A DNA stretch of 64,000 bases, taken from assembly GCF_000633635.1 (NCBI RefSeq), contig NZ_AYPQ01000002.1:175643-239642 (forward strand). The letters are read 5' to 3'. Each line of letters opens with the position of its first letter. Position 1 is the stretch's first letter. The translations under genes were made by a program, and so were the position numbers. Source of the DNA: Enterococcus crotali. Its GTDB lineage: Bacteria > Bacillota > Bacilli > Lactobacillales > Enterococcaceae. The notes beneath the pieces were generated by a model. That model saw only the letters and a program-made list of their open reading frames with translations, did no database searches and was not told the DNA's origin. This document shows, one piece after another, positions 45,192 through 62,739 of this stretch.

Positions 45192-45256
45192 AATGTTAGC
45201 GCTTTCTTTCTATTTTATAAATAGACAAACTATAGCATTTATATCAAAAAGTATAG
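45192..45256 (-). promoter_or_regulatory. GH85 promoter: cre plus two 21-bp-spaced repeats, candidate YesN sites
   Basis: On the minus strand CTATACTTT (45248-45256) and CTATAGTTT (45227-45235) are direct repeats 21 bp apart. After exactly 24 bp comes GCGC (45199-45202) and TAACAT (-10, 45193-45198). The site at 45193-45207 fits the cre consensus with one mismatch and overlaps the -10. The importer promoter at 62674-62739 has the same spacing throughout. Confidence 0.65.
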
Positions 45257-45275
45257 GTTTATTCATGGTGAATCG

Positions 45276-45323
45276 TTAAAAACAGCTGAAACGTCAAGTT
45301 TTATACTCTCCATCTCAGCTGCC
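45276..45323 (-). terminator. candidate terminator after the GH20 gene
   Basis: On the minus strand CAGCTGA and TCAGCTG pair over a loop of about 25 nt, followed by TTTTTAAC. The stem is short and the confidence modest. Confidence 0.45.
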
Positions 45324-45326
45324 ATA

Positions 45327-46625
45327 TTAATTGATTTTGTAGAAATGAAAAGAAAATCCGTCCATCAATTTTATAAGATCTATTATGATTTCCTCTTCTT
45401 CTTTCGCTTTTGGTTTATCACACCAAACTGCCAGAGCAGCGCCTTTGACTTGTTGCTGTTCAGTTGGGGAAACTAGTTGGTGTGACGCGAATAACTCAGG
45501 TTGCCATTTTTCTTTTATTTTTTTTGCAGTAGGATACGTATACCCAGCATTCTCACCAAGTACGTAATAGAGGTAATTATCATTAAAATTAATGACAGAA
45601 TAGCCTTCGTCCAAAAAGGTTTGAACAGGCGCCATTTCTTTTTGCCATTTCGTCCAATAGGTAATTTCAACATTTTTTGTCAGAATAGAGCGTTGGTTAT
45701 TTCTAAAAAACGCATCATTCCAAACTCTAGGGATAAATCCGTGCTCCTCAACAAAATGAGCGACTGTGTTGACATAGTTTTCAAATTTATAAATGCCATC
45801 GTCTTTCAAGGCTGGATACCGATCCATTTGATCGAATGCCACAAACTCGTCTGCACCGATATGGAAATAGCGACTATCAGAGAACAACTGCAGATACTCT
45901 TGGTATAGCGAGAGTACAAAGGACACCGCTTGTTGATTTGTAATATCTAACGCGGCAGGAACTTTCCCAATGCCCCCTGCTTCCTCTTGTATCAACAATT
46001 GCCAATCTGGATAAGCTTTTAACAAATGTTCCATATGCCCTGGCGTATCAATATCAGGAATTATTTCAATCGATAAGTAGGCTGCGTAACGAATTAATTC
46101 TTTCACCTCGGCAATTGACAGAAATTCATCAGAAACCAGTTCAGGATAGTGTATCGATTCAATTCGAAAACCATTATTTTCAGAAAAATGCAGTTGCAGA
46201 AAGTTACAGCCATACAGAGCCATTTCTTCTAAGATTCGATGTAGTCCTTTCGGCGAAATATACTTCCTGCCAATATCCAACATAACGATTCGTTCTGTTA
46301 CAACCTCGAAAAATTGTCCTGATATGATTTCCGCTCCTGTTTTTAACAATTTCGCTAAATACATAACGCCACGAAACGCAGTCGATCGACTATCCGCCTG
46401 AACCGCGATTTGTTCAGCCGTATCTATTATAAAAGTGTTCTTTGCTTCTGACGAAAAGCTGACGATAACATCAGCCTCCTCAGGTATTTTTACAAAACGG
46501 ATTTTTTTATTTAGTAATCGTAAATATAAATAAGCTATTCTCTGGCGCTCTGCGTCAAAAGCCTGATCCATATAAAAACTGATATTTTGTACATCGAATA
46601 AACGAACTACTTCGACACCTTTCAC
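45327..46625 (-). CDS. GH20 beta-N-acetylhexosaminidase, intracellular
   Basis: A 432-residue protein with no signal peptide. A small N-terminal domain (about 1-110) precedes the TIM barrel with MLDIGRKYIS (115-124), IIPDIDTPGHMEHLL and the catalytic Asp-Glu pair in FHIGADEF (Asp259, Glu260). It removes non-reducing GlcNAc or GalNAc. It starts with GTG overlapping the ROK stop by 3 bp. The pneumococcal N-glycan locus, as I recall it, carries a GH20 in the same position, which suggests trimming of imported glycan fragments. Confidence 0.9.
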   Translation of the reverse strand: MKGVEVVRLFDVQNISFYMDQAFDAERQRIAYLYLRLLNKKIRFVKIPEEADVIVSFSSEAKNTFIIDTAEQIAVQADSRSTAFRGVMYLAKLLKTGAEIISGQFFEVVTERIVMLDIGRKYISPKGLHRILEEMALYGCNFLQLHFSENNGFRIESIHYPELVSDEFLSIAEVKELIRYAAYLSIEIIPDIDTPGHMEHLLKAYPDWQLLIQEEAGGIGKVPAALDITNQQAVSFVLSLYQEYLQLFSDSRYFHIGADEFVAFDQMDRYPALKDDGIYKFENYVNTVAHFVEEHGFIPRVWNDAFFRNNQRSILTKNVEITYWTKWQKEMAPVQTFLDEGYSVINFNDNYLYYVLGENAGYTYPTAKKIKEKWQPELFASHQLVSPTEQQQVKGAALAVWCDKPKAKEEEEIIIDLIKLMDGFSFHFYKIN

Positions 46626-47491
46626 GCCAAACCTCTTTTTTCTTTTGCCAACAACAAGCAGCCCATAGTACCACTGTTATCACCTAAATCACAGCCAACA
46701 ATATACTCATCCAAAGCAGGCAACGAAACATAGCCACCTAATTGTTGTTCTAATGATTCACGAATTTTCGGAAAAAGCTGGGTCTGCTTCATCACTCCGC
46801 CGCCTAAGATGATTTTTTCTGGCGAAAGAACTAATGTATAGTTCATCAAAGCCTGCGCTAGATAAAAAGCTTCAACTGCCCAGACGTCGTGATCCATTTC
46901 CAATAGTTGTCCTTTGACTCCCGTTCTTTTTTCCAATGCAGGTCCAGCAGCTAGCCCTTCTAGACAATTATCATGATAAGGACATACGCACTCCAATGTA
47001 TCATCAGGATAGCGTCGAACAGTGATATGCCCCATCTCCGGATGACTAAACCCTTGCAACACAGCCCCGTTCACAACAGCGCCGCCGCCAATCCCTGTTC
47101 CGACAGTCAGATAGATACAGCTTTGAGTCCCTTTTCCGGCACCCAAGTGAATCTCACCATAAGCAGCTGCATTTACGTCAGTAGTCCAAGCAATCGGAAT
47201 AGCATAGCGTGCTTTTAGCGCTCCTAAAAGATCCATATTTGTCCAGCCTATTTTTGGGGTAGAAGTAATATAACCATACGTACTGGATTTCTGATTAACA
47301 TCGATTGGGCCAAACGAACCTACTCCTAGCGCCTTCAATTGGTAGCTATCAAAAAATTCAAAGACTTGATTTAATGTTTCTTCTGGTAATGTTGTAGGCA
47401 AACTGATTCGTTCAATGATCTGTAAATCTTCATCCGCTACTGCACAGACAAATTTAGTCCCACCAGCTTCGATCGATCCATAATATTCCAT
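46622..47491 (-). CDS. ROK-family sugar kinase, fructokinase/mannokinase-like
   Basis: A 289-residue ROK kinase: N-terminal GSIEAGGTKFVCAV (phosphate loop), TDVNAAAYGE with catalytic Asp, LTVGTGIGGG, and the zinc motif HPEMGH...CVCPYHDNCLEG. The CPYHxxC form is typical of ScrK/GmuE-type enzymes that act on fructose or mannose. The ATG at 47491 follows GAGAAGTG. It sits between GH38 and GH20 genes, so mannose released by the mannosidases is the likely substrate; this is inference. Confidence 0.86.
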   Translation of the reverse strand: MEYYGSIEAGGTKFVCAVADEDLQIIERISLPTTLPEETLNQVFEFFDSYQLKALGVGSFGPIDVNQKSSTYGYITSTPKIGWTNMDLLGALKARYAIPIAWTTDVNAAAYGEIHLGAGKGTQSCIYLTVGTGIGGGAVVNGAVLQGFSHPEMGHITVRRYPDDTLECVCPYHDNCLEGLAAGPALEKRTGVKGQLLEMDHDVWAVEAFYLAQALMNYTLVLSPEKIILGGGVMKQTQLFPKIRESLEQQLGGYVSLPALDEYIVGCDLGDNSGTMGCLLLAKEKRGLA

Positions 47492-47509
47492 CAAAATCAC
47501 TTCTCTTTC

Positions 47510-50199
47510 TTATCGGTCAAATCCAATTGTACGAATTTCATAGGCTTCTAGGTTGTTCGTTACTTTTCCAGGTTGTTTCACTTCTAGTAAGTTTAATAAA
47601 TAAGAATTTGCGCCAGTACTTTTTTCTATCACGACCTCATCTGACTTATCACTCATATTGAACCCTCTCACAACAAGGGCTTGATTCTTCTCACTGTTTT
47701 TCATTGCTGTTACTGCAAATTTGTGCCTTCAATTGTTAAATAGGCATCTTTTGCCTTTAATTGCCCTGCATGATTTGTTGTTTGTTTTACACTAAAAGGA
47801 ATTTGCGCTGCATACGCTCGTTTGTACGTAGCATATCGATCCATTGCTTCCCCATGAAAATCAACGCCATATTTAAACGTGTGCTGTCCGATACACTGCG
47901 CTTCTGGCGTTGGGAAATACCCCCAATCGCCCATTTCACCAACGGCTCTTAAAAGAGTTAGCGCAATCGTGTTTGCTTCTGGTAAAACCTCATATTCATT
48001 TAACCCAAAGTTTGAAACCGTTATCCCAGACTTTTCATCATGGATATTAACAAATGCATGCTGATGCTGAGGATTGGTTGGATTTTCCCAACTTTTACTA
48101 ACTTGATTTGGTCGCGTAACCACTTCATAGATACTATCTGCTTCGTGTGTCTCTGCTTTTATCCCTGTTGGAAATAGCATCCGCAAGCGATGGTCTTTCA
48201 TTTGGTTATTTAAAGCTGTTTCAAAGCTCAATCGAGGAGAATCTTTTTCCATCGTTACTACTGTTTCGATCGTTAATTCTTTCAATTTTGATGAGCGCTT
48301 GGCTTTTCTATAACGAAAATCGACGACAGATTTTTGTTCTTGTTCCAATAAATCTTCCGCAGATTCGGGAATCATCATGCGTTGAATGATCTTGACTTGC
48401 ACCATGAAAGATTCATCTTTCACTATGGAAACTTCTGCTGGAAGCCCGCTAGATAAAAGTGGAGTCGTATCTTCTGGTTGTTTAAAAATATATTCATTTC
48501 CGATATCTCCAGTATTTTCAATCGTCAGTAATTTGTTATATATTCTGCCTGACGTTTTATCCAAGACTTCTAATGTTCCATCACCATTGATCATTACCTT
48601 CAAGCGGCTATTTTCCAACACATCATTTTCTTCATTTACGACCATTGAGTCTGTTTTGCCAACTGGCGTTTTTGTTTCTCGCAATGCAAAAGAGTCCCAC
48701 GAAAAGGCTGGCATGTTATTTATAGGCAGTTCTATTTCCACATATTTAGCCATATATGGTACTCTGAAACGATCTTTCGGCAAATCATAGCCAAAGCTAA
48801 CTTCAGGATTTGAAATCAAGGCTGGTACTACTTGACCTTCAGAATCAATCACTTCAAAAGTTGGAGTTTGACTTTCAGCAAGCTCTGCCCATAATTCATG
48901 AGGTATCCCTTCCTTAAACGGCTTTCTCTCGATTTCTATTTTTATTTTCGTGATTTCTGATTTTTGATACCCCGATGTATTAAATACAACAAATGGATAA
49001 CTTGTGTCGGCAAACTGCTTTGTATCGACTGCTTTAACTAAGTGAGTCAAGGCATCTTCAGCCAAAAATTTCCCGACTTCATTCGCTTTTTCAAACCGCG
49101 GAATCATTTCGCGATGTACTTCGTCGACCGAACAGCCGCAAATGCTATCGTGGGGATGATTTTGTAACAATAATTTCCAAGCGTAATCAAGTTGATCGTG
49201 CGGATAACTTTGTGTTAGTTCATAGGCCATTGCAGCTAATGGTTCTGTCACATTTTCCAGTTGGCGCTCAACAGTGGTATTCCATTGTTTTAAATAAACT
49301 CTTGCTGAAGCCGTATTCGCTAAAGTAAACCAGCCATCCGTCTCTTGGCTCGTCAATTCTCCTTGGACTGTTCCAACTTTGTCTGGTAAATCTTGACGCA
49401 TCTGTTTTAAGTACTCATCAAAATTTGAGTGAATAAATTCATATTCAGGGAATAATTCATTTGCCAAGGCGATTGCTTTGGTAATATCCTTTTGGACTGG
49501 CTGATGATCGACGCCATTCATCATCAATAAATGATCCGTAGAAGCAAATTTTTCAGCTTCAGCTAACTTTTGGTTCCAAAACATTAAAGCCGCTTCTTTT
49601 TCAGCTGGTATTTCATTACCGTTACTGTACCAGTTAGCAAACAACAACCCTAAAATAGTACTACCATCCGGTCCTTGCCACCACATTTCTGAATACTGTG
49701 AGGTATAATTTTCATCCTCTAACACTTCATTGTTAAAGCCAACTGGTTTCACTCCTCGACCAAAAGCCGCTGCGTCTAAATCAGCCTGTTTCATCATTTG
49801 TGGTGTTTGCCCCATGTTACCAAACGTATCTGGGAAATAACCTAGCTTGACTTCCGGTCCCCATTTTTCGCTTTCCTTTTTACCAATCAGCATATTGCGC
49901 ACATTTGATTCAGAGCTGATTAGAAAATCATCTTGCAAGATATAAAATGGTCCGATTCGTAGTTTCCCATCCGTAATTGCTTTTTGAACGGCGGATTTCT
50001 TCTCTGGTCTAACTTGTAAATAATCATCTAAAATAATCGTCTGACCATCCAAATGAAAACTATCGAATGCCGGATCGGTCTCAATCAATTCCAACACGTC
50101 ATCTACCAGCTCAACTAAGCGCATATGGTGTTGTTCATACGGCATGTACCATTCACGATCCCAATGAGAATGAGAAATGATATAGACTTTTTTCTTCAT
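47510..50199 (-). CDS. GH38 alpha-mannosidase (frameshifted near the C-terminus)
   Basis: An intracellular zinc mannosidase. HSHWDREWY (metal His12 and Asp14) opens the protein, GYFPDTFGNMGQ carries the nucleophile Asp124, and NHPHDSICGC supplies the later ligand. The main frame ends at 47710. Restoring one T in a coding-strand T run (plus-strand AAA at 47717-47719) joins EGTNFAVTAMKNSEKN to the following frame. That gives about 896 residues ending at 47510. The ATG at 50199 follows GGAGTG. It belongs to the set that strips alpha-linked mannose. Confidence 0.9.
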
Positions 50200-50223
50200 A
50201 ATTTTACACTCCATCCATTCTTT

Positions 50224-51513
50224 TTATTGTTCAACTCGAATATCAAAATAATCCATTACCAGTTCACAAAACATCATATTAGCCCAAGAGAACCATTCAC
50301 GTGTATAATTTTTCGGATCATCAACATCAAATCCTTCATGCATTAAGTGTGTCCCTCCGTCATTGGCTACTAAAGAATTCAAGATTCGTTCTTTTTCTGA
50401 CTTGTTTTTTGTCGTCATGCCTTCCATCGCCAATGCGATCGGCCAAATATAATTTTCTGGCGTATGAGAACTACCGATTCCTTTAGCGTATTTTCCTTCA
50501 TAAAAATAAGGATTTTCCTTACTTAAAATTGTTTGCCTAGTCGCTTGATATGTGGAGTCCTCAACTGTTGTATAACCTAAATAAGGTGCTGCAAGTAAAT
50601 TAGGAATATTGCTATCATCCATGATGCTGGCGTTGCCTAACCCATCAACCTCATAAGCGTAGATAGCTTTCCCAGATTGATTGTCTGTTTTACCAAATCG
50701 TTGAATCCCAGCATCGATTTCTTTTCTAAGAGAAGCCGCTTGTTCTACGATTTCTGGATCAGGCAGTATCTCAGTAAAAATCTCTTCGATATAGCCTAAA
50801 ATAACTACTGCAAACATATTCGATGGCACTAAATAACCGTAACGGCAAGCGTCATCACTTGGACGAAAGCCAGACCAGGTCATTCCTGTTTTACTGACCT
50901 CACTGCCTCGACCTTCATTTACAAGTGTGTCTTCTAAACGCGTAGTATCGCGTTCGAATGTATAGGCTAAATTTTGGTGTTCTTGTTCTGTTTTAAAAAC
51001 CGTCAAAATCTTTTTCACACCTGCTACAAAATTCTCGTCGAACTGCTTCTGACATCCCGTATTTTTAAATAGCAAGTATGCGAGCTGAACGGGGTAACAG
51101 AGTGAATCTATTTCGTATTTTCGCTCCCAGATCCATGGATTCATCGTCGTGTGATCGGTCTGATGTCCGGCACCATTCGGTTCTTCATTGAATGCATTAG
51201 CATATGGGTCGATCGTGATGTAGAAAAATTGACGTTGGACCAGACCACAAATCATATCTCTCAATTCTTCATCTTCTTTGGCGATAACTAAGTAAGGACG
51301 GACTTGAGCTGTAGAATCTCTCAGCCACATTGCAGGAATATCTCCTGTTAGTAAAAACGTAGTTCCATCCGCTTGCCTTTTAACCGTTGTCGTCAATGTG
51401 TTGGCAAAAGCCGCATTGAAGTTCTCTGCCCAACCAGCATGTTCTTCCCCACACATTTGAGTGATTTTATCCATAAAAGCTTGAACGGAATTTGGTATTT
51501 TTTTATAAGTCAT
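50224..51513 (-). CDS. GH125 exo-alpha-1,6-mannosidase
   Basis: A 429-residue (alpha/alpha)6-barrel protein formerly called DUF1237. Typical blocks are LTGDIPAMWLRDSTAQVRPY (about 55-74), GAGHQTDHTTMNPWIWERKYEIDSLCYP and GMTWSGFRPSDDACRYGYLVPSNMF. It hydrolyses alpha-1,6-linked mannose from N-glycans by inversion. First gene of the leftward mannosidase operon, 24 bp before GH38, with a GGAGG site and a promoter under the 16-bp operator. Confidence 0.92.
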   Translation of the reverse strand: MTYKKIPNSVQAFMDKITQMCGEEHAGWAENFNAAFANTLTTTVKRQADGTTFLLTGDIPAMWLRDSTAQVRPYLVIAKEDEELRDMICGLVQRQFFYITIDPYANAFNEEPNGAGHQTDHTTMNPWIWERKYEIDSLCYPVQLAYLLFKNTGCQKQFDENFVAGVKKILTVFKTEQEHQNLAYTFERDTTRLEDTLVNEGRGSEVSKTGMTWSGFRPSDDACRYGYLVPSNMFAVVILGYIEEIFTEILPDPEIVEQAASLRKEIDAGIQRFGKTDNQSGKAIYAYEVDGLGNASIMDDSNIPNLLAAPYLGYTTVEDSTYQATRQTILSKENPYFYEGKYAKGIGSSHTPENYIWPIALAMEGMTTKNKSEKERILNSLVANDGGTHLMHEGFDVDDPKNYTREWFSWANMMFCELVMDYFDIRVEQ

Positions 51514-51552
51514 ACGTACCTCCTAATAGTTGATATATCATTTAACAACGAA

Positions 51553-51581
51553 AGTATATGCTAATGAAAGCGTTTTGTCTA
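51553..51581 (-). promoter_or_regulatory. GH125-GH38-ROK-GH20 promoter with cre
   Basis: On the minus strand TAGACA (51576-51581), a 17-bp spacer and TATACT (51553-51558). The spacer holds a cre-like site, plus-strand ATGAAAGCGTTTTGT (51564-51578), with one mismatch to consensus. Glucose repression is therefore expected. Confidence 0.72.
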
Positions 51582-51604
51582 CTGTTTTTATTAATATTTT
51601 TAAA

Positions 51605-51633
51605 TTGAACTCTTTTTCTTTCTATGTTAAACT
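51605..51633 (+). promoter_or_regulatory. promoter of the GntR-type regulator and GH92
   Basis: TTGAAC (51605-51610), a 17-bp spacer and TAAACT (51628-51633), directly followed by the right-hand 16-bp operator. Confidence 0.6.
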
Positions 51634-51673
51634 AACAACAATGATATATCATTTAACATTTAGGAGAACAACT

Positions 51674-52708
51674 ATGTCAAAACCATTGTATAAAAAAATA
51701 ACCGATGACTTATTGCAAGCAATCGAAACTGGAAAATTACCAGAAAATGCCCAACTTCCAACAGAAAAGGAACTCTCTCAAACGTATAATGTCAGTCGTA
51801 TCACCTCTAAACGAGCTCTGACAGAACTTGAAAACCAAGGACTGATTTATCGCATTCAAGGAAAAGGCAGCTATGTTCAAAAACGGAAACCAATGAAGAA
51901 AAAAGTATCACGTATTTTATTTTTGATTCCCTTTGTAAATGATCTTTCTCTAGGGAACTTCAATGAGGGATTAGCACCTGTCACAAGTGAACATCATTAT
52001 GAAGTAATCATGTCTTCTTCGGAATTTTTGATCAATAAACAAGCAGCTGATATCATTGAAGACTTTGATGGGATGATCTACTATGCACATAATACTGAAG
52101 ATTTTCTAGATACGTTATTCGAGTTGTCTATTCAGCAATTTCCAGTCATTATCTTAGATAAAAAGATCCACGATCTGCCTTATCCCACTATTCAATCAGA
52201 TAACTTTTCAGGTGGTGCAATGGCGACATCTTATTTAGCAACCCAAGGTCATCAGCGGATTGCTTATATTTTCGGAGAAGAAACACTACCTCAATCTGTA
52301 CGGCAGCGCTATTTAGGCTACATTCATGCGACGAAAGAACAGCACTTATCTTTTCACACCGCTTTAACAGATAAACAAGCGTTTCAAAACTCCGATGTCA
52401 TTGCTTATATTTCAGAAAATGCGATTACTGGTGTTGTCTGCGAAAATGATTTAGTAGCGATTTCTTTAATGAACCAAGCCAAGCGAGCCAACATTGATAT
52501 ACCAACTCAATTATCCATTATCGGATTCGATAATATCCAAGCTGCCTCATTGATCGATCCTTCTTTAACCACGATTGCTCAGGATTTTAAAGGGATGGGC
52601 AAACTTGCAGGTACGATGCTGATAGAATGGATCGAAAAACAAGTGATTCCAGCAGATCAACAAGTTCCAGTAAAACAAATTATTCGACACTCAACAAAGG
52701 AGAATTAA
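51674..52708 (+). CDS. GntR/LacI hybrid regulator (AraR architecture)
   Basis: A 344-residue protein with an N-terminal GntR winged helix (residues about 3-72: LYKKITDDLLQAIETGKLP, PTEKELSQTYNVSRITSKRAL, GKGSYVQ) fused to a LacI-type sugar-binding domain (about 78-340; FDNIQAASLIDPSLTTIAQD). This is the AraR layout. A longer reading to 51530 is rejected because TAGGAGAAC precedes the ATG at 51674. It lies 3 bp ahead of GH92 and divergent from GH125, so it probably represses both with mannose or a mannoside as inducer. Confidence 0.88.
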   Translation: MSKPLYKKITDDLLQAIETGKLPENAQLPTEKELSQTYNVSRITSKRALTELENQGLIYRIQGKGSYVQKRKPMKKKVSRILFLIPFVNDLSLGNFNEGLAPVTSEHHYEVIMSSSEFLINKQAADIIEDFDGMIYYAHNTEDFLDTLFELSIQQFPVIILDKKIHDLPYPTIQSDNFSGGAMATSYLATQGHQRIAYIFGEETLPQSVRQRYLGYIHATKEQHLSFHTALTDKQAFQNSDVIAYISENAITGVVCENDLVAISLMNQAKRANIDIPTQLSIIGFDNIQAASLIDPSLTTIAQDFKGMGKLAGTMLIEWIEKQVIPADQQVPVKQIIRHSTKEN

Positions 52709-52711
52709 TGT

Positions 52712-54853
52712 ATGAAACCAACACTTATCGATACTAGACACGGAACCGATAATCAACATTCTTTTTCAAATGGTAATTGTTTACCCTATACTGGTGTGCC
52801 TTTTGGCATGAATTATTTTGCACCTCAGACAAATGGAGATAACGGTAGTTGGTGGTTCAATCCTCGCGATCGTGTCTTTCAAGGATTTCGTTTGACACAT
52901 CAGCCTAGTCCTTGGATGGGGGATTTTAGTTATTTGGTTATGTTGCCTTTTAACGGCAAACTAAAAGAATCGACTGTCTTTCATGCTCAGTCTTCTTACC
53001 GACCAGATGAAAGCGTTTTTAAACCTAGTTATTTAGAACTGACAGCACAGCGCTATCAACTGACAACTCGTCTGATTCCAAGTATGTATGGTGGTGTCTT
53101 AACAGCAAGTTACACACAAGCAGATGCTGGACTTTTACTTTCACTCCCTGGAAAATATCAACTTACTGTCGAGGATAAACATACCGTTTCCGGCTCTATA
53201 ATAAACTACGCAGGTTGTGAGGATAAGCATTTTTCTTTTTATTTTACATTGCACTTTGACCAAGCTTTAACTTTTGAAAAACCTGTCGAGCAAACAGGCG
53301 AAAATGAGTGTATTACTTTTTCATTTGGGAATATTAAAGAACAAGTAGTCCAGTTTGGTACGTCGTTTATCAGTTTAGAACAAGCGAAGTTAAATTTGTC
53401 TCGTGAAGCTCATTGGCAACCAGCAGACTACCTTGCAAACTCAGAAAAGCAGTGGTCTCATTATCTGAATAAAATCGAGATTCAAGATAAGAACCAGCAG
53501 CGTCGTTCGACCTTTTATCATAATTTATATCGTGCTTTTTTATTCCCGCAAACATTTTATGAAAAAGATGCTAACGACAAAATTATTCATTATGATACGT
53601 TGGCTAAAGAAGTAAAACCAGGATTTCTCTATACAAATAATGGGTTTTGGGATACTTATAAAACGGTGTATCCACTTTATTCATTGATTGCTCAAGAAAA
53701 ATATGCTGAAATGCTGGAAGGTTTTTTAAACAGTTATCGAGAAAGCGGCTATTTGCCTAAATGGCTTTCACCTGATGAACGAGGCTTGATGCCGGGCACG
53801 TTGATCGATGCTGTAGTTGCCGATGCTGCAGTGAAAAATATCCGTCCTGATTTGATGCCTGAATTTTTAAAAGCTATGATCAAAGGCGCAACGATTCAAA
53901 GCGAGAATCCAAATTATGGCAGACAAGGAACCAATGATTATTTAACCTATGGATATGTTCCTGCTAACTATCACGAGTCAGTCAACCATACCTTAGATTA
54001 TTGTTACAGTGACTTTTGTATCAGCCAAGTTGCAAACTCCTTGAAAGAACATAAAATCGCTGAACATTATACAAAACAAGCCAAAAACTATTTAACTATT
54101 TTCGATCCTCATTCTGGCTTTATGCGAGCAAAACAAATAGATGGAACGTTCAAGCAACCATTTAATAGTCATCAATGGGGTGAAGACTACGCTGAAGGTA
54201 GTGCTTGGCAGAGCAGTTTTGCTGTATATCATGATTTTAAAGGCTTGATATCAGCTTATGGTGGACCAGACAACTTCCAAGAAAAATTGATTGATTTATG
54301 TAATCAGGCACCTGTTTTCAATGTGGACGGGTATGGATTTGAAATTCATGAAATGAGTGAAATGGCTGCCACAGAATTTGGGCAATTGGCGATTTCTAAT
54401 CAGCCGAGTTTTCATTTCCCTTATTTATTTAGCTACCTTGGTAAACCGGAATTTGCTCAACCGTTACTTAAACAATTGATGAGTCAAGAATTCAATGATG
54501 GTCCCACTGGTTTTCCAGGTGACGAAGATAATGGAAGCATGGCTAGTTGGTATATTTTTAGTTCATTGGGCTTTTACCCTGTTTGCCCTGGTTCAGGTGA
54601 ATACGTGATTGGCATGCCTTTGTTTGATAAAGCGATTATTCATTTATCTAACGGTGAAACACTGAATATTTCTACTAGTCCAAATCAGGAACAGCAACAA
54701 TTTGTTGATCATATTCGTTACAATGATTCTTTACATGAGGGGCTAGTTTTCACTCATGACAGCTTGATGAATGGTGGTACGATCGACTTTACTTTAGGCA
54801 TCGTGCCTAGACCAAGACAATACAAAGAAGAGCAACTTCCATTTAGTATTTAA
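52712..54853 (+). CDS. GH92 alpha-1,2-mannosidase family protein, intracellular
   Basis: A 713-residue member of GH92 without a signal peptide: DTRHGTDNQHSFSNGNCLPYTG at the N-terminus, FWDTYKTVYPLYSLI in the barrel, FEIHEMSEMAATEFGQ and PGDEDNGSMASWYIFSSLGFYPVCPG at the C-terminal active site. Calcium-dependent exo-alpha-mannosidases of this family remove alpha-1,2-, 1,3- or other mannose. It is cotranscribed with the regulator and ends in a repeat-derived terminator. Confidence 0.92.
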   Translation: MKPTLIDTRHGTDNQHSFSNGNCLPYTGVPFGMNYFAPQTNGDNGSWWFNPRDRVFQGFRLTHQPSPWMGDFSYLVMLPFNGKLKESTVFHAQSSYRPDESVFKPSYLELTAQRYQLTTRLIPSMYGGVLTASYTQADAGLLLSLPGKYQLTVEDKHTVSGSIINYAGCEDKHFSFYFTLHFDQALTFEKPVEQTGENECITFSFGNIKEQVVQFGTSFISLEQAKLNLSREAHWQPADYLANSEKQWSHYLNKIEIQDKNQQRRSTFYHNLYRAFLFPQTFYEKDANDKIIHYDTLAKEVKPGFLYTNNGFWDTYKTVYPLYSLIAQEKYAEMLEGFLNSYRESGYLPKWLSPDERGLMPGTLIDAVVADAAVKNIRPDLMPEFLKAMIKGATIQSENPNYGRQGTNDYLTYGYVPANYHESVNHTLDYCYSDFCISQVANSLKEHKIAEHYTKQAKNYLTIFDPHSGFMRAKQIDGTFKQPFNSHQWGEDYAEGSAWQSSFAVYHDFKGLISAYGGPDNFQEKLIDLCNQAPVFNVDGYGFEIHEMSEMAATEFGQLAISNQPSFHFPYLFSYLGKPEFAQPLLKQLMSQEFNDGPTGFPGDEDNGSMASWYIFSSLGFYPVCPGSGEYVIGMPLFDKAIIHLSNGETLNISTSPNQEQQQFVDHIRYNDSLHEGLVFTHDSLMNGGTIDFTLGIVPRPRQYKEEQLPFSI

Positions 54854-54869
54854 TAACGTTTTATTTACG

Positions 54870-55047
54870 AAAAGAGGTTGGGTCAGAAGTGTTTAACCCC
54901 GAGAAATAAGAAGAGATTCACGAAAATTGCTCTTCAAATTTTTGTGAATCTCTTCTTATTTCCGAAGGGGTTGCTTCTGATCCCACCGTTTATTCGGATT
55001 TAGAGCCCGTAACAAAACTGATTTTTAGTTTTGTCCCGGACTCTTTT
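54870..55047 (+). repeat. full copy C of the dispersed intergenic repeat
   Basis: It opens AAAGAGGTTGGGTCAG. Long inner arms (GAAATAAGAAGAGATTCACG at about 54902-54921 and its near-complement ending TCTTCTTATTTC) fold into a large stem-loop. CCACCGTTTATTCGG and the closing AACAAAACT hairpin follow. Copies A (18400-18506) and B (26699-27030) share the ends. It fills the gap between the convergent GH92 and yesN-type genes. Confidence 0.65.
55012..55047 (+). terminator. terminator after GH92
   Basis: GAGCCCGTAACAAAACT pairs with AGTTTTGTCCCGGACTC (a few mismatches), followed by TTTTTC. It is the closing hairpin of repeat copy C. Confidence 0.75.
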
Positions 55048-55051
55048 TCAC

Positions 55052-56547
55052 CTATTCTTCACCCACTGAGTTATAATGATGTTTGTATTTTTCTCGAAAT
55101 TCTTTTGGGGTTAGATCATTCATCTTTTTAAACAGTTGAGAGAAATATGTGCTGTTGTTAAAGCCTATTTTATCAGCGATTTCATTTACGTTATCGTCCG
55201 TATAGAGTAACAGGTTTTGCGCTTTTTTCATTCGATATTGGTTCAAATATTGTGAAAAACTCTTCTTTGTTTCTTTTTTAAATAGTTGCCCCAAGTACAT
55301 TACATTAAGATGCAACGATTGAGCTACACATTTCAAAGTTAATTCGCTCGTATACTCTGAGCGAATTTTATCAATTACTTTTTGAACATTCTCTGAATAA
55401 TCGTATGCTATTTTCTCCCGGGTGATTTGAGTCACTGTAGTAGACAGAATATCATGTAGTTTATCTGCATTCGATGAGTGATTGATATCATCTAAAACTT
55501 GCTGATACTCCCCTTCATCTAAATGATTAAAACGACGATAGATATCCATAAAAAGCATAAACGTAATATGGCGAACATCTTCTGGCGAGCGCCGATTTTT
55601 TGTGTTTTAGTAAAAATTTCAGCAATCGTAGTCTCGATCGTAGTAAAGTCTCCCACCATCAAGGTTTTGTTAAAATTAATAATATCTGCCGAAAGATCAA
55701 AATCATCTGAAAAAACAGAATATAGCACATTACTGCCACTTGCTTCATAAAACTTATAGCGTTGCAGCGTCTGATTAGCTTTTTCATAACTGTCCGGTAC
55801 ATCTTCCCAATCACTGACCGTCTCACCGACACTTATCAACCAGCTATCGTCTTCATTGACCTGTAAAGGATTTGCAGTTAACAATTGGTTCAATTGATAC
55901 TTACCACCTTTTAATATATGTACAATCAGGCTTTTATCCCCTAGATTCCGAGTAAACAACAACGATTGCTGCTGATTTTCCAGCCAGTCAATGACATTGA
56001 TTTTTTTCTCACGATTTACCTCGATCAATAAAACTGTCCACTCTGACTTTTCTGCCGTATTGACCAATCGATCCAACTCTTCATAACTGTCCTTGTCAAT
56101 TTCACCATTCACCCATTGAGACAATAAAATTTCACTATACAAGCCATTTCTAGTTTCCTGCTGATTACGATCATCCAAACGTTTTCTTGCTTTTTTGACA
56201 CTTTTTAAAAGCTCGATCTTATCGACGGGTTTCATCAAATAATTGATGGCCCCCAATTGCAAACCGCCTTTTAAAAAATCGAATTTTTGATAACCAGAAA
56301 GGATCATAAACTCAAATTCCCTTGCCTCTTTTTGAGCAGCTTCAATGAATTCTAACCCTGTCATTTCCGGCATCGTAATATCAGTGATCACTAGATCAAT
56401 CGCCTCTGTCTCCATCATCGTCAGTGCTTCTTTGGCATTTCTGGCGGTCCCTTTGATGGAAAAACCTTCTGCTTCCCACGAAATAATTTTTTTCAGTCCA
56501 TTTACGATCATATATTCATCATCTACCAGTAAAACATTGTAATTCAT
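55052..56547 (-). CDS. YesN-type response regulator with AraC helix-turn-helix (frameshifted)
   Basis: The receiver domain (residues 1-120; VDDEYMIVNG, phospho-acceptor Asp56 in VITDITMPEM, Lys in MKPVDK) is followed by a linker. The frame breaks near 55577-55584, and the second frame carries the AraC-type DNA-binding domain (ELTLKCVAQSLHLNVMYLGQLFKKE and IGFNNSTYFSQLFKK). Adding one base gives about 498 residues. It pairs with the sensor kinase 107 bp upstream. It is the best candidate for binding the 21-bp-spaced repeats at 45227-45256 and 62708-62739. Confidence 0.88.
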
Positions 56548-56654
56548 TTTATTACTCCTTTACTCTGAGACTACTTGTCACAAAATGATTTTGCAGTGGA
56601 ATACGATGACTTTTTTTAGCGACCTTACCTTGATCTTTTTCTAACTTTAATATT

Positions 56655-58379
56655 TTAAGAGAATGGTGCGTCAAAAGATAGCATAATTGCAATCCCTTTT
56701 GTTTCGTTTGGCGTAATCGTCATCAAAAATGATGATCCAAAGTAAGCGCGCAAACGTTCGTTTACATTTTGCAACCCAATTGAGTCATGCAGTTCAATTT
56801 GATCACTCTGCAATTTTGTTTGAATCAATGCTAGCTTTTGCACTGAGATCCCTTTGCCGTTATCCCGAATCAAGATCTTGACTTGTCCATCAACTAAGCG
56901 CGCTTTCACGCTGATAGCATTGTCATTTCTAGAAAAATCGATACCATGAACAAAATAATTTTCGATCAACGGCTGAATTGAAAATTTCGGTAAAACCAGT
57001 TCCTTCAATGCCTCATCGATCTCAAAGTGATACGCAATTCGATCTGGATACCTCATTTGATATAAATACACATACTTTTCACAAAAACTCAGCTCTTTTT
57101 CCAAGGTTGTGGTCTTAGCCTGATCAGTATTATTCCGAAGTAAGGTGGAAAAGGCGTACACAACATCCGCAAGCTCCTCACTCCCCTCACTTAAGGCGTA
57201 CATGCGAATATACTCTAAAGTGTTATATAAAAAATGCGGACTGATTTGCGACTGTAATGCTCTCATATGTGCATCTTGCTGCTTGATTTCCAGCTTATAA
57301 ATATCGGAAATATACTGCTCAATATTATCCAGCATCGTGTTAATCCCGATTGAGAGCTCTTTTAACTCAAATTGCGTCTCCTGTTCATTGATTCGCGTAT
57401 TCAAGTCTCCTTCAGATACAAGCGCCATCGAATCCATAATAATATCAACTTGCTGAGAATACTTCGTAAAGGTGCGATAAAGTAAATATAACAGCAGTAA
57501 AATCAGCACCAAACCACCCAGCATCAAAATACGCAGTTCAAAAAGAACATGCGTCAGAATTTTCTCTTTGGAGACTGTCACTAAAATATCAAACCCACTT
57601 GTTGTCTGCAGATGTTCCAATATATTGTCTTCCATCAATTTTTGGATCGGCAACGCAGATGTTTCTTTCATTTTTTGTTGAATCAGTTGTTGCTCTATCC
57701 CGTTATTCTTTTCTGTATAGGTCAATAGTTGATACCCTGTGCTGGAAAATACATAAGCAGATAATCCATCGAATGTCGTTAAATGAGTCAAACTATCGAT
57801 TATATCTTTTTGAGAGAACTCAACATAAAAACTTCCTAGAACTTCTAAGGTCACAGGATTCGTGATTGGATAGGCTAAATAAAACTTATTATTCAGACGC
57901 GGTGTCCCATTGATTTTCTTACCACTCTTATCTTCTACACTAGAAAGATAGTAGTCATTATAATTGTTCAAAACAATGATGATCGATTCGATATTATCAT
58001 ACATGGTATAAAAATTTTTTACTTGGCCTGGCAAAAATAAGTAGCTACCACTCTCTAATTGTTGATCAAAAGAATACGTCAAATACTCTGAAATCGACAT
58101 ATCCATATAACGATTTAAATTGTTGATTTTATCTTGATTGTCTCTCAAACTATTCAACATGGTTTTACCTTGTATGTTCTTATCATTGATCGAGCGACTG
58201 ATTGTATCTACAGCCTCTTGAGCGGTGATCTCCCCTCTTCCCATTGACTGCCAATAGGTATTCATACCAATACTGAACATGCCAACCAAAATCAAGGAAA
58301 CAAGGATCAAGGCATAATTTTTCAGCAATCGATTCAGTAACGTTTTTTCATTAAAGGAAGAAGGTTGCTTTTTACGCAT
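56655..58379 (-). CDS. YesM-type sensor histidine kinase
   Basis: A 574-residue membrane kinase: membrane segments at about 18-38 and 278-302 frame an extracellular sensor domain of about 240 residues. A HAMP-like linker follows, then the His_kinase domain with phospho-acceptor His in QSQISPHFLYNTLEY, and the ATPase with IRDNGKGIS. YesM kinases partner AraC-type YesN regulators and typically sense oligosaccharide directly or via a binding protein. It overlaps the DUF624 gene by 8 bp. Confidence 0.92.
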   Translation of the reverse strand: MRKKQPSSFNEKTLLNRLLKNYALILVSLILVGMFSIGMNTYWQSMGRGEITAQEAVDTISRSINDKNIQGKTMLNSLRDNQDKINNLNRYMDMSISEYLTYSFDQQLESGSYLFLPGQVKNFYTMYDNIESIIIVLNNYNDYYLSSVEDKSGKKINGTPRLNNKFYLAYPITNPVTLEVLGSFYVEFSQKDIIDSLTHLTTFDGLSAYVFSSTGYQLLTYTEKNNGIEQQLIQQKMKETSALPIQKLMEDNILEHLQTTSGFDILVTVSKEKILTHVLFELRILMLGGLVLILLLLYLLYRTFTKYSQQVDIIMDSMALVSEGDLNTRINEQETQFELKELSIGINTMLDNIEQYISDIYKLEIKQQDAHMRALQSQISPHFLYNTLEYIRMYALSEGSEELADVVYAFSTLLRNNTDQAKTTTLEKELSFCEKYVYLYQMRYPDRIAYHFEIDEALKELVLPKFSIQPLIENYFVHGIDFSRNDNAISVKARLVDGQVKILIRDNGKGISVQKLALIQTKLQSDQIELHDSIGLQNVNERLRAYFGSSFLMTITPNETKGIAIMLSFDAPFS

Positions 58380-58986
58380 GAAGTTCCAATCGCTGATCGA
58401 TCGTTTGCCGCCATGATTTGGTCGCAGTGAAACTCCAGATTTGAATCATAGAAAAAGTGCCGAATAAAATTAAGCCTTTGAATTTCCACGTGACAAATAA
58501 AATCACACTTACACCAATCGCGATTTTCAATAAATTTGTAAAATTAGATAATGTTGAAATGAATGCTAGCTTCAACAAATTTTTTAACCCGATCTCATAA
58601 TAGCTGTCTAATAATAACGTGTACTGAAAAGTAACCAATGCATAAATCATTGCAAAAACTAAAAGAAAATCGATCATCAAAAAGGACAAGCCTTGGATTT
58701 GAACCGATAAAAACAAATTGTATGCTAAGAGTGCTAACAATAAAATAGTACCGTAAAAAAGCACATTCCCTCTAATAAAATTCTGCTTAAAACGACTCCA
58801 GCCTTCTTTTAACGTGATCTCTTTGTAATTGAATTCGTGACTGATAAATAATTCATTGATCGTTTTCAGAGCTGGACCAATACCAGCTACAAGCAACCCG
58901 CAACAGCTGAATAACCAAAAAAACAAATTTAATTTTACAATGACCCAGATTTTAATGAATAACGTTTCTAATGCTTTTCCAACCAT
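58372..58986 (-). CDS. DUF624 (YesL-like) membrane protein
   Basis: A 204-residue protein with about five membrane segments and the DUF624 opening (FWLFSCCGLLVAGIGPALKTI, about 23-43). YesL-like proteins are regularly encoded with YesMN systems and Lpl/Yte-type ABC importers; their role is not known to me, perhaps assembly or signalling between importer and kinase. It lies between the binding-protein gene and yesM and overlaps the latter. Confidence 0.83.
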   Translation of the reverse strand: MVGKALETLFIKIWVIVKLNLFFWLFSCCGLLVAGIGPALKTINELFISHEFNYKEITLKEGWSRFKQNFIRGNVLFYGTILLLALLAYNLFLSVQIQGLSFLMIDFLLVFAMIYALVTFQYTLLLDSYYEIGLKNLLKLAFISTLSNFTNLLKIAIGVSVILFVTWKFKGLILFGTFSMIQIWSFTATKSWRQTIDQRLELHA

Positions 58987-59102
58987 CTAACTCGCCCTTT
59001 CTTTATCTCTATTAATATAATAAATAACTATTAAGGATATTCCAAATAAAAAAATTGCTGCATAAAATAATACTACGCATTTTAATCCAATTATTTTTTA
59101 AA

Positions 59103-59145
59103 AGAACCAAGCAAAAACGATGCAGCATCGAATCACTTGGTTCCA
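59103..59145 (-). terminator. attenuator after the binding-protein gene
   Basis: On the minus strand GGAACCAAG and CTTGGTTC pair, with an inner CGATGCTGCATCG stem, followed by TTTTAAAAAA. It lies about 15 bp after the binding-protein stop and should lower expression of DUF624-YesM-YesN relative to the importer. Confidence 0.65.
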
Positions 59146-59160
59146 CGGACTATACCTGTT

Positions 59161-60626
59161 TTATTTTTTCAAAAACTCATCGTATTGTTTTTGCATTTCA
59201 GTTAAAACTTTGTCATATCCGGCATTAACAAGTGCTTCTTTTAGTTTAGGAACAGTTTCTTCTGGATCAACGGTTCCCGTATTCAAGCCGTCCAAATATT
59301 GACTCATAACGTTTGCGATATTACTCATTTCTGTTTTTACATTTGACGTCACAAAGTTAAACCCTAAAATCGGAGATGTTTCTGCTTTAGCAATTGATTC
59401 GTCACGCTCTTTGATCATTTCATCCGTAATACTATCTTGTGTGTATAAGATTTTGTTATTTCCGGTATTCCAAGCAGGTAAGTGAGTATTTGGTTTGTAA
59501 CCATCTAACAACTTGATTTTGTCTTCTTTACCAGAAATTTTTTCCCACGCTTCTCCTTCAATACCCCAAACTAAACCATTTAACAACTCTGGATCACTAT
59601 TGATTTGACCTAGCACTTCTACAGCTTTTTCTTTGTTTTTAGACGTATTTGAGACAACAAAGTTAGCCATCCGGGCTTGATCACTTGACTTCAATGGTGT
59701 GGTAAAAGCTTTAGATACTAATTCTTGTCCTGCAGCGTTACTTAAAATCGTATCACCATAATCGTAAGGACCTTGTGTCTCTTGACGAACGAACCAAGTA
59801 TTTCCTTCCAATGGAAACTCTGTATTACTTGTTGCTGCATCTGATGGAATATAGCCTGCTTGATACCATTTATGCATTGTTTTTAGGGAATCCATAAAGT
59901 CTTTGTCTTCGTACTGGTTGATGATTTTTTTCGTATCACCATTTAGACTGACGGCAAACGGATAACCATTCCAATTGGAAAATCATAATCGCCTTGTACT
60001 TTGAATCCTTGACCGATCGCAAAAGCTGCAATATTCGGTTCTTTTTCGTGGAACGTTTTCAACACACTTTCAGCATCCTTATATGTTTTAATGCCATCGA
60101 TCGATAAATTGTACTTATCTAAATACTGTTTGTTGAATGTCAGCACTTGTTGGGAATAAACATTGCCATTCACAGGAAAGGCATATAACTTACCATCTAC
60201 TAAATTCCCTTTGATGTACGCTTCATCTAACTGGTCATAAGCATCTTTAGCAAACTTCGGTGCTAACTCTGTTAAATCAGCATAAGCTCCTTTTTGCGCA
60301 TTTGGCACATAATTATCAGCAAAAGCAATATCATAATTTTCACCTGAAGAGACAATAACACTCATTTTCTTCTCGTAATCGCCCCAGCCAATGTATTGGA
60401 TGTTTAGTTTAGCCCCTGTTTTCTCTTCAATTCTCTTATTGGCAACTTCCATCAACGCATCATAATTCTCAGGTTTATCCCCGATTTGATACATCAGTAA
60501 GGTATTCTCATCTGCCTTTTTACTACTTCCGTCCGTCTTATCCTTACTTCCTCCACCACATGCTGTTAACGCACCTAAAAGAACCACTGCTGCACTTAAA
60601 CCGACTACTTTTTTCCACGTCTTCAT
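59161..60626 (-). CDS. oligosaccharide-binding lipoprotein of an ABC importer (frameshifted)
   Basis: Signal peptide 1-22 with lipobox LTAC (Cys23), then a family 1 extracellular solute-binding fold (EKKMSVIVSSGENYDIAFADNY) and a DUF3502-like C-terminal part. The frame breaks at about 59969-59971. Adding one A on the coding strand restores PIGNGYPFAVSLNGDTKK and a 488-residue protein. LplA/YtcQ-type proteins of this length bind complex glycans. Its setting beside mannosidases suggests released N-glycan as ligand, as described for the pneumococcal NgtS. Confidence 0.88.
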
Positions 60627-60754
60627 TCCTGTTCCTCCTTGTAATTTAAAATAGTAACAACGTTTTGCTTCACTTCACCTTTTACTTTTCAACATCTGTT
60701 CATTTTAGTAAAAGCTTCGTGAGCTAGACAATTGCAAAAGCGTAGCTAGCTTTT

Positions 60755-61684
60755 TTATTCCTTCACTCCGCCAATCGTTAATCCTTTGACAAAATACTTT
60801 TGGAAAAATGGATAACTGATCGCAATCGGTAATGTCGAAATAACCACGATCGCCATTCGAGCAGATTCTCCCGGTATCGCTGCCATCCCGCCAGATAATT
60901 GACTACTAGCTCCAGCGTTTTGAGTCAGGTATTGAATATTATTTTGAATCTTCATCAATAAATATTGCAGTGGAACCAAACTATCTTTTTGAATATATAA
61001 GAGTGCATTAAACCAGTCATTCCAATAGCCTAAGGCCGCAAACAAACTGATCGTTGCAATTCCCGGCACTGCTAACGGTAACACGATTTGAATAAAAATC
61101 CGCATCTCAGAAGCGCCATCGATCCTAGCCGACTCGATAATCGAATCAGACACTGAGCGTTTGAAAAAGGTCCGCATCACAATAATATTAAACGGACTGA
61201 CCGCCATTGGCAAAATCAACGCCCAAATCGTATCTTTTAATTGAAGTAAATTTGTCATCACGATATAGTTTGCGACCATTCCTGGTGAGAATAACATGGT
61301 GATCAAACAAAACACTGTAAAAAAACGACGGAATGGAAAATTAGATCTTGAAATCACATACGCATAAAGTGACGTCGCTGTACTATTGATCAAGGTGCCA
61401 ACTACTGTAACTAACACTGTCACAAATAACGCTTGAAAAATTTTATCCTGCATCTGATCAAATAAATAAGTATAACCGAACAAACTAAATTCCTTAGGCC
61501 AAAAACTATAACCGTTCGCGGCTAATGCTGTTTCATTCGTCAGTGAGATTGCGACAACAAACAAGAACGGCAAAATGCAAGATAGAGCAAAAACAGCGAT
61601 CAAAATATTAAAAAAGAAGTTGACTGGTTTATTAAACGAACGAATTGCTACTTTTGAAACTGGCTTTTTCCTCAATGTTTTCAC
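60755..61684 (-). CDS. carbohydrate ABC transporter permease, YtcP/LplC type
   Basis: A 309-residue permease with six membrane segments and the EAA loop SARIDGASEMRIFIQIVLPLAVPGIATIS (written in part: ARIDGASEMRIF, about 195-206) that docks the ATPase. It forms the channel with the gene at 61691-62637. The operon lacks its own ATP-binding protein, so a shared MsmK-like ATPase encoded elsewhere probably powers it, as is normal for this family. Ends YFVKGLTIGGVKE, the conserved C-terminus. Confidence 0.9.
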   Translation of the reverse strand: MKTLRKKPVSKVAIRSFNKPVNFFFNILIAVFALSCILPFLFVVAISLTNETALAANGYSFWPKEFSLFGYTYLFDQMQDKIFQALFVTVLVTVVGTLINSTATSLYAYVISRSNFPFRRFFTVFCLITMLFSPGMVANYIVMTNLLQLKDTIWALILPMAVSPFNIIVMRTFFKRSVSDSIIESARIDGASEMRIFIQIVLPLAVPGIATISLFAALGYWNDWFNALLYIQKDSLVPLQYLLMKIQNNIQYLTQNAGASSQLSGGMAAIPGESARMAIVVISTLPIAISYPFFQKYFVKGLTIGGVKE

Positions 61685-61690
61685 TCCTCC

Positions 61691-62637
61691 TTAGAATAAT
61701 GCCGAGTCATTGTCGAAGCGACGAACGATCCCGTTTGTAATCATCAATAAGACAAAACCGACTGTTGATTGATACAATCCAGCTGCAGCTGTCATCCCGA
61801 TATCTCCAGTAGCTGTCAAGCCGTTAAAGATATACGTATCTAAAACAGACGTAACCTGATACAACGAACCTGAGTTTCGCGGAACATTATAGAACAAACC
61901 AAAATCCGCTCTAAAAATATTTCCCACAGCTAAAATCGTCAAGATCGTCATTAGAGGTAATAATTGAGGAATTGTAACATTCTTGATTTGCTGCCACTTA
62001 CTTGCACCGTCCACCATCGCAGCCTCATAATAAGTCGATCGATCCCCATAACAGAAGCAAAATAGATGATACTATTATAGCCGATCCCTTTCCACGTCCC
62101 GATAAAGACTAAGATAAACGGCCAATATTTCGCCTCACTATACCAATTGATTGGTGTACCTCCACGACTTGTGATCCACTGATTGAAAATCCCTTTGTCT
62201 GGGCTTAAAAAGGCATACACAAAATACCCAATAATAACCCAAGATAAGAAGTACGGTAAAAGAGACATCGTTTGATAGACTTTTACCAAACGCTTATTCC
62301 GTAATTCACTCATTACGATTGCAAAAAATACAGAAATGACAAGGTTTAATGTAATAAACGTCACGTTGTACAACACTGTATTTTTCGTAATCAAGAAGGC
62401 ATCATTCGAAGAAAACAAAAACTTGAAATTATCCAAACCAACCCAGGGACTCGTTTTCAAACTAGCGATAAACCCATCTGGTGAAATATGAAAATCCTTA
62501 AAAGCGACCACATTGGTCAATACTGGAATGTAAAAGAAAAAAATCATCCAGACCATTGCAGGGATCGCCATCAAGATCAATGCTTTATATCGCCATATAT
62601 TCGTAAAGAAAAGCGAGCTCTTTGATTTTTTCTTCAT
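61691..62637 (-). CDS. carbohydrate ABC transporter permease, LplB type (frameshifted)
   Basis: Six membrane segments are spread over two frames joined near 62034-62036. One extra base restores GIDRTYYEAAMVDGASKWQQ, which is exactly the EAA ATPase-docking loop, and a protein of 315 residues. The ATG at 62637 is preceded by AAAGGAG with 8-nt spacing, so the longer frame to 62658 is rejected. First gene of the importer operon, 6 bp before the second permease. Confidence 0.88.
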
Positions 62638-62673
62638 TTCCCCAACTCCTTTCATCAAATTGTCTACAATAGA

Positions 62674-62739
62674 ATTGTAGCGCTTTCAAATAGAAATAAA
62701 AATAAACAAAATATAGATATTCTTATAGAAAATATAGAT
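62674..62739 (-). promoter_or_regulatory. importer operon promoter: cre plus two 21-bp-spaced repeats, candidate YesN sites
   Basis: On the minus strand CTATATTTT occurs at 62731-62739 region (62729-62739 as ATCTATATTTT) and again at 62708-62718, 21 bp apart. Exactly 24 bp later GCGC (62680-62683) leads into TACAAT (-10, 62674-62679). The -35 position is a poor TTTTTA, as at activator-dependent promoters. Plus-strand TTGTAGCGCTTTCAA (62675-62689) is a cre with one mismatch over the -10 and spacer. Confidence 0.7.

Follow-up and report, generated by a model that had tools for sequence, protein, structure and literature searches.

In the pneumococcus, the utilization of N-glycans is already known to be under the control of a YesMN-type two-component system (PMC7075642). 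As described in the accessible parts of that report, this system, TCS07 (HK07/RR07), consists of a YesM-type kinase and an AraC-type response regulator, and its targets include an N-glycan importer, GH85, GH20, ROK, GH38, GH125 and GH92. The overexpression of RR07 gave log2 changes of 5.3 for NgtP1, 6.2 for NgtP2, 6.7 for NgtS, 7.1 for EndoD (GH85) and 8.5 for GH125, and no consensus motif of RR07 was found by the authors in the same parts of the report (PMC7075642). According to passages of another study, a candidate RR07 motif, the single and unvalidated element CTWWWWWWAG-N39-60-TSS (transcription start site), was derived from endoD promoters (PMC11034029). Here, a stretch of 64,000 bp from Enterococcus crotali (contig NZ_AYPQ01000002.1, positions 175,643 to 239,642; hereafter the window) was analyzed with respect to a tandem repeat that is shared by the promoters of a GH85 gene and of an ATP-binding cassette (ABC) importer operon. 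Relatives of all the TCS07 targets named above were present in this locus. Judged from sequence comparison, both elements very probably represent one operator, at which YesN would act, an AraC-type response regulator whose gene is the last of the importer operon.

The elements of the two promoters were as follows:

45248..45256, minus strand: half-site 1 of the GH85 promoter (CTATACTTT), read directly and found in all 17 genomes of the genus that have GH85
45227..45235, minus strand: half-site 2 of the GH85 promoter (CTATAGTTT), 21 bp from half-site 1, from the sequence and the genus comparison
45216..45221, minus strand: probable weak -35 (TTTATA) of the GH85 promoter, 17 bp from the -10 and right after half-site 2
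45193..45207, minus strand: -10 (TAACAT) of the GH85 promoter with the overlapping cre-like (catabolite-responsive element) AGAAAGCGCTAACAT, from the sequence, the cre by its consensus
62729..62737, minus strand: half-site 1 of the importer promoter (CTATATTTT), from the sequence and the genus comparison
62708..62716, minus strand: half-site 2 of the importer promoter (CTATATTTT), 21 bp from half-site 1, from the sequence and the genus comparison
62697..62702, minus strand: probable weak -35 (TTTTTA) of the importer promoter
62674..62688, minus strand: -10 (TACAAT) of the importer promoter with the overlapping cre-like TGAAAGCGCTACAAT, from the sequence and the -10 register, the cre by its consensus

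In each promoter, the half-sites were separated by N12 and followed by 24 bp, GCGC (45202-45199 and 62683-62680) and the -10 hexamer (45198-45193 and 62679-62674). The original prediction had placed the repeats exactly 21 bp apart at both promoters, which was confirmed by direct reading on the minus strand, and its remark that the intervening bases differ, so that no simple duplication is involved, agreed with the different spacers of the two promoters. The order of 24 bp, GCGC and -10, which it had also described, held for both promoters in the window; among relatives GCGC varied (GCGT, ACGT, ACGC and one AGGC among 47 sites), and the -10 register was the steadier feature. Direct repeats spaced by 21 bp are the arrangement expected of an AraC-type tandem operator. 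The I1-I2 class II sites of AraC are two direct repeats 21 bp apart that lie just upstream of, or overlap, a poor -35, and the cre sites of CcpA can lie over the -10. The promoters in the window resembled I1-I2 in the tandem 21-bp repeats at a poor -35, but the presumed binder is a response regulator and the half-site sequence is another one; they resembled CcpA-controlled promoters in GAAARCG over the -10, although this was not found at every orthologous promoter. A palindrome, CTACAATTCTATTGTAG, was also observed over the importer -10 (62664-62680), with its outer CTACA/TGTAG kept in several but not all of the related species; it is possibly a second operator.

The scan of the genome for the pair, which the original prediction had proposed and from which the GCGC part was left out, showed that the genome (3.9 Mb, 20 contigs) contained the exact CTATANTTT-N12-CTATANTTT at just two places, the GH85 promoter and the importer promoter. 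When up to two mismatches were allowed, the forward pattern matched 21 times (the 2 exact pairs and 19 places with two mismatches) and the reversed-pattern control 26 times; a T at both position 11 and position 32 together with an in-register -10-like hexamer was seen at none of the 19 weaker places. A longer pattern, whose CG was one base out of register so that it was no clean test, gave one new genome match with three mismatches, and its control gave four. Within the genus (22 genomes), 17 genomes together contained 33 exact pairs, and the reversed control gave none; 32 of the 33 sat at a GH85 or importer promoter. The remaining pair (G004, contig 34) had no gene of the N-glycan system within 11.6 kb and is probably due to chance. 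The 17 GH85-bearing genomes were the same 17 as the motif-bearing ones, and all had the site at both promoters, with the GH85 sites of G014 and G019 reading CTATG, a variant half-site. The comparison across related enterococci, likewise proposed beforehand, thus revealed a pair conserved at orthologous loci. The repeats and the distances were constant, while the sequence of the 25 bases preceding the repeats was for the most part different from species to species. Moreover, a T was found in 47 of 47 sites (32 from the genus and 15 from outside) at positions 11 and 32, which lie two bases past each 9-mer and were not specified by the pattern. Four genomes of the genus without GH85 but with an importer homologue (G002, G005, G015 and G016) had a mixed CTTTA/CTATA site, and in G010 neither an exact pair nor, at E 1e-60, an importer match was detected. 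The loci L214, L215, L216 and L217, from four genus genomes without GH85, contained a different version of the importer permease (75-77% identical); their YesN was of the Val type, and their site was of the mixed CTTTA/CTATA form. On the permease tree, this version was separate from that of the window, which suggests that it may have arisen by replacement or transfer.

The spacing was rigid when examined without any motif. In 70 importer upstream regions, recurrence of a 12-mer (at least 10 of 12 equal) was found at a distance of 21 in 59, with a maximum of 6 at any other distance from 12 to 45. Among 30 GH85 promoters outside the genus, which were the 30 best-scoring ones, 17 recurred at 21, with a maximum of 3 elsewhere (14-31). 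A set of 29 named loci (28 from Lactobacillales and Listeria fleischmannii, partly from the same genomes as the other sets: G017, G132 and G152) gave 14 at a distance of 21 and at most 2 at other distances. These 14 came from Enterococcus, Streptococcus, Lactococcus and lactobacilli; the copy in Listeria fleischmannii was weaker (9/12), and the values for the two loci from Vagococcus were 8 and 7. The importer homologues had been sampled from 48 genomes chosen by hand, not at random, of which 46 had a match; 39 of these were added (40 loci), 3 were already included, and G148, G191, G207 and G339 were left out. Of the 70 regions, 68 were above the score cut, and 66 of these reached offset 28. 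The position relative to the promoter, at or next to the -35 as for an AraC-type operator, was also fixed: a hexamer with at least 5 of 6 matches to TATAAT started 28 bp after half-site 2 in 56 of the 66 importer promoters, and at other offsets (15 to 44) in at most 7. The cre-like sequence was kept throughout the genus except for one AGG variant and was missing in several f8/g24 importer promoters, in which the -10 distance was unchanged. Because the -10 register was kept even without the cre, the steady relation is to the polymerase, as for an activator, and not to the cre.

The site was followed beyond the genus by an order-level scan of 395 genomes for the pair with an added CG where the cre lies. 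A motif pair that is common at unrelated promoters had been named in advance as evidence against a shared regulon; the scan gave 47 forward matches, in 30 genomes, and a single control match. Of the 18 matches outside the genus, 13 were directly upstream of the orthologous importer-YesL-YesM-YesN operon, including that of G099 from a different family (f8), 4 preceded GH85 genes that lay about 394 kb away or on a different contig, and one match, in G189, was unexplained. In G132 and G374, the site-bearing GH85 was at another locus and 37-38% identical to that of the window. The general half-site was CTWTARTTTGT, with CTTTA used besides CTATA in other genera. GH85 upstream regions were sampled from 103 GH85-bearing genomes plus G021 (17 from the genus, 30 as L084-L113 and 20 as L161-L180). 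Among the 20 further regions, mostly from streptococci and other families, the site was present in 4 (L169, L172, L174 and L180). Two GH85 promoters of another family (f4/g28) carried it with a score of 25. The position weight matrix (PWM) of the Enterococcus model missed degenerate sites in GH85 upstream regions, which were recovered by the motif-free scan; the latter missed L111 and L113, which were found by PWM. The shared-regulon reading of the original prediction is supported by these comparisons, since the site is unique in the genome, conserved at orthologous loci and rare elsewhere, and tracks the YesLMN operon into other genera and families as well as distant GH85 genes. The induction of the importer and of EndoD in the pneumococcus by overexpressed RR07, the counterpart of YesN, is in line with it (PMC7075642).

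We infer the roles of YesN as binder and activator, of YesM in glycan sensing and of CcpA from the protein families, the pneumococcal data and the established mechanisms of AraC and CcpA. In the proposed mechanism, glycan would be sensed by YesM, and a dimer of phosphorylated YesN would bind the two head-to-tail CTWTARTTTGT half-sites on one face of the DNA, as 21 bp correspond to two helical turns. The downstream protomer would abut the weak -35, with its distance to the -10 fixed at 28 bp, in the geometry of a class II AraC activator. YesN would switch on the importer and, because the importer operon contains yesLMN, its own genes, forming a positive feedback loop. It would also activate in trans GH85, which would free N-glycans outside the cell. 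In the presence of a good sugar, CcpA at the cre over the -10 would shut both promoters (catabolite repression).

The genes concerned were the following:

42388..45135, minus strand: GH85 endo-β-N-acetylglucosaminidase with an F5/8 type C domain (PF03644, E 1.4e-83)
61691..62658, minus strand: ABC permease, first importer gene, split into 61951-62658 and 61691-62017 (NCBIfam matches below the curated cut-offs)
60755..61684, minus strand: second ABC permease in a single frame (NCBIfam matches below the curated cut-offs)
59161..60626, minus strand: putative sugar-binding lipoprotein, split into 59943-60626 and 59161-59895, assigned by operon position, with no NCBIfam match
58372..58986, minus strand: putative YesL-type membrane protein, named by position and present in the operon of relatives, with no NCBIfam match
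56655..58379, minus strand: YesM-type sensor histidine kinase (PF06580, E 2.4e-23; PF02518; PF00672)
55052..56547, minus strand: YesN-type response regulator, split into the receiver (55519-56547; PF00072, E 3.9e-23) and the helix-turn-helix (HTH) part (55052-55558; PF12833, E 2.9e-22)

The protein of the GH85 gene is probably secreted, judging from its N-terminus. That the YesN-type gene ends the importer operon, as had been claimed, was corroborated by PF00072 and PF12833 on its two pieces; a YesM-type kinase thus stood beside a regulator with a receiver and an AraC-type HTH, which formed one frame in the relative G009. The Pfam analysis also detected GH20, ROK, GH38, GH125, GH92 and a GntR/LacI-type regulator (51530-52708) in the locus, so that the N-glycan importer and the enzymes (GH85, GH20, ROK, GH38, GH125 and GH92) were linked or co-occurring. 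Pneumococcal RR07 also induces cytosolic enzymes, according to the accessible parts of the report (PMC7075642), whereas here the exact site was found only at the importer and GH85, and the enzyme genes lie beside the GntR-type regulator. Between the divergent GH125 and GntR/LacI-type genes (51530-51660), TGATATATCATTTAACA was observed twice, at a distance of about 110 bp, together with a cre-like TGAAAGCGTTTT; the TGATATATCATTTAACA copies are likely a pair of operators through which the GntR-type regulator acts on the cytosolic mannosidase genes. A long inverted repeat at 54900-54965, where GH92 and yesN converge, is probably a shared transcription terminator.

The relation to RR07 was examined in 21 streptococcal loci (706,972 bases, both strands), scored with a consensus derived from such importer promoters; the f3/g14 genomes were taken as Streptococcus because their importer promoters were near-equal to those of named streptococcal loci. 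The importer promoter was the top-scoring place in 21 of 21 loci. All 27 positions with scores of at least 23 were at an importer promoter (21, partly by construction) or a GH125 promoter (6, outside the consensus). In the 12 loci with a GH125 start, 6 of these promoters scored 23-25 and 6 scored 18-21; 5 of the lower 6 showed a sequence like half-site 2 and an in-register -10-like hexamer, which were absent in S. uberis. Counting 11 of the 12 GH125 promoters as site-bearing was rejected, since only 6 outscored the GH92 regions and the other 5 were look-alikes. Several streptococcal importer promoters have CTATAATTAG as their half-site 2; this sequence fits CTWWWWWWAG and would be situated roughly N39-60 from the expected start. 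The arrangement described here differs from CTWWWWWWAG-N39-60-TSS, as given in passages of its source (PMC11034029), in being a 21-bp tandem direct repeat at a fixed distance from the -10. None of the ten streptococcal GH85 promoters scanned, at which CTWWWWWWAG itself was not counted, showed the tandem geometry.

An association was also seen between YesN and its site. A Met at residue 87 of the HTH (second YesN piece) was found in 33 loci, and every one of these had A at position 3 of both half-sites; of the 23 loci with Val or Ser at this residue, 15 had T in at least one half. The table comprised 56 loci; those with a score below 21 or without a YesN match were dropped, including L243, L247, L252 (Met) and streptococci. 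The Met/Val link gave a Fisher value of 3e-8, inflated by kinship. By equal-length match ranges (query 58-156, chain 13-111), the column of residue 87 falls on residue 42 of MarA (1bl0_A), which we take to be a Trp that touches DNA. The association of residue 87 with half-site position 3 is a hint only.

Several observations weigh against YesN as the regulator at these promoters or against the wide reach of the site. The Met/Val link corresponded to about three changes on the tree, at least two of them forced, and is therefore only suggestive; the dropped low-score locus L247 had Met with T, although its match was poor. The six GH125 promoters with scores of 18-21 were within the range of 10 GH92 upstream regions (16-21). 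The ten streptococcal GH85 (endoD) promoters had no site (best score 19), yet RR07 induces pneumococcal endoD, and these promoters speak against a single motif for all RR07 targets. Of the 20 further GH85 upstream regions, 16 had no site, and G339 (L091) had the tandem site at GH85 but an importer homologue of only 40% identity. In 51 more distant loci, mainly from Paenibacillus, Clostridia and other Bacillota, 1 recurred at a distance of 21 and 5 at 20. In an electrophoretic mobility shift assay, as described in the available passages, pneumococcal RR07 was negative on the strH and gh125 promoters (PMC9603416), which speaks against direct gh125 binding or against the activity of the protein in that assay. 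Finally, yesN was split in this assembly.

The last point leads to the most serious of the alternatives, in which the importer-YesMN operon is decaying in this strain and the sites persist in a regulon that no longer works. The first permease, the putative binding protein and YesN were each in two open reading frames (ORFs) here and intact in relatives. However, the pieces were still 78-99% identical to their counterparts in other genomes of the genus, and the splitting was not confined to the operon: compared with G009, 54 window genes were single-frame and 9 were not, which left 7 after subtraction of one at the window edge and one antisense duplicate. Because four of these were outside the importer operon (near 9140, 11430, 29890 and 39930), assembly indels are the likelier cause of the split ORFs; operon-specific decay was set aside as the first-choice explanation, and a non-functional regulon is considered unlikely.

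It is less likely still that the sites are real operators of another regulator, for example the one of GntR/LacI type or a different member of the AraC family. The gene of the former is part of this locus, and such genomes carry several AraC-type regulators, but tandem 21-bp repeats are typical of the AraC family, and the site tracked the YesLMN operon across several families. It was also present in stretches of about 16 kb in which no GntR relative was found (L145, L146, L150, L154 and L155), the GntR region has its own, different repeat TGATATATCATTTAACA, and RR07, in the consulted parts of the pneumococcal work, activates the matching genes. A GH85 site that is a mere relic of copying, with only the importer site functional, would account for the CTATG variant in two GH85 sites of the genus; we regard this as very improbable, since all 17 GH85-bearing genomes of the genus retained the GH85 site, as did other genera, in two of which GH85 was 37-38% identical to that of the window and lay at another locus, and the different spacers of the two promoters make recent copying unlikely. 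The region is A+T rich and directly upstream of a weak -35, so that the repeats could be a promoter context resembling an UP element, without any specific protein. This is hardly credible, because reversed controls of the same composition gave 0 matches in 22 genomes and 1 in 395, and the 21 and 28 bp were fixed while the spacer letters varied.

An operator of YesN therefore remains the preferred reading of both promoters. In the literature searched (titles, abstract openings and passages, with most subscription journals outside), no tandem operator, -10 register or enterococcal presence was described. On balance, we lean towards the view that one code, (CTWTARTTTGT)x2 at 21 bp with the -10 located 28 bp downstream, of which the Listeria locus has a weaker copy, defines the whole YesN/RR07 regulator clade of Lactobacillales. 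The regulon would have been rewired by moves of the module to GH85 in enterococci and f8 and to the GH125 operon in streptococci. The code would then be the missing RR07 site, with direct control of the importer and GH125 and possibly indirect control of endoD. The tandem site provides a precise and transferable prediction of the DNA to be tested and of the genes that are direct targets, and makes the question of the RR07 binding site in the pneumococcus, as it appears from the available parts of the studies, testable (PMC7075642, PMC9603416, PMC11034029). For the enterococci, it suggests that the release and the import of glycans are coupled through this site.

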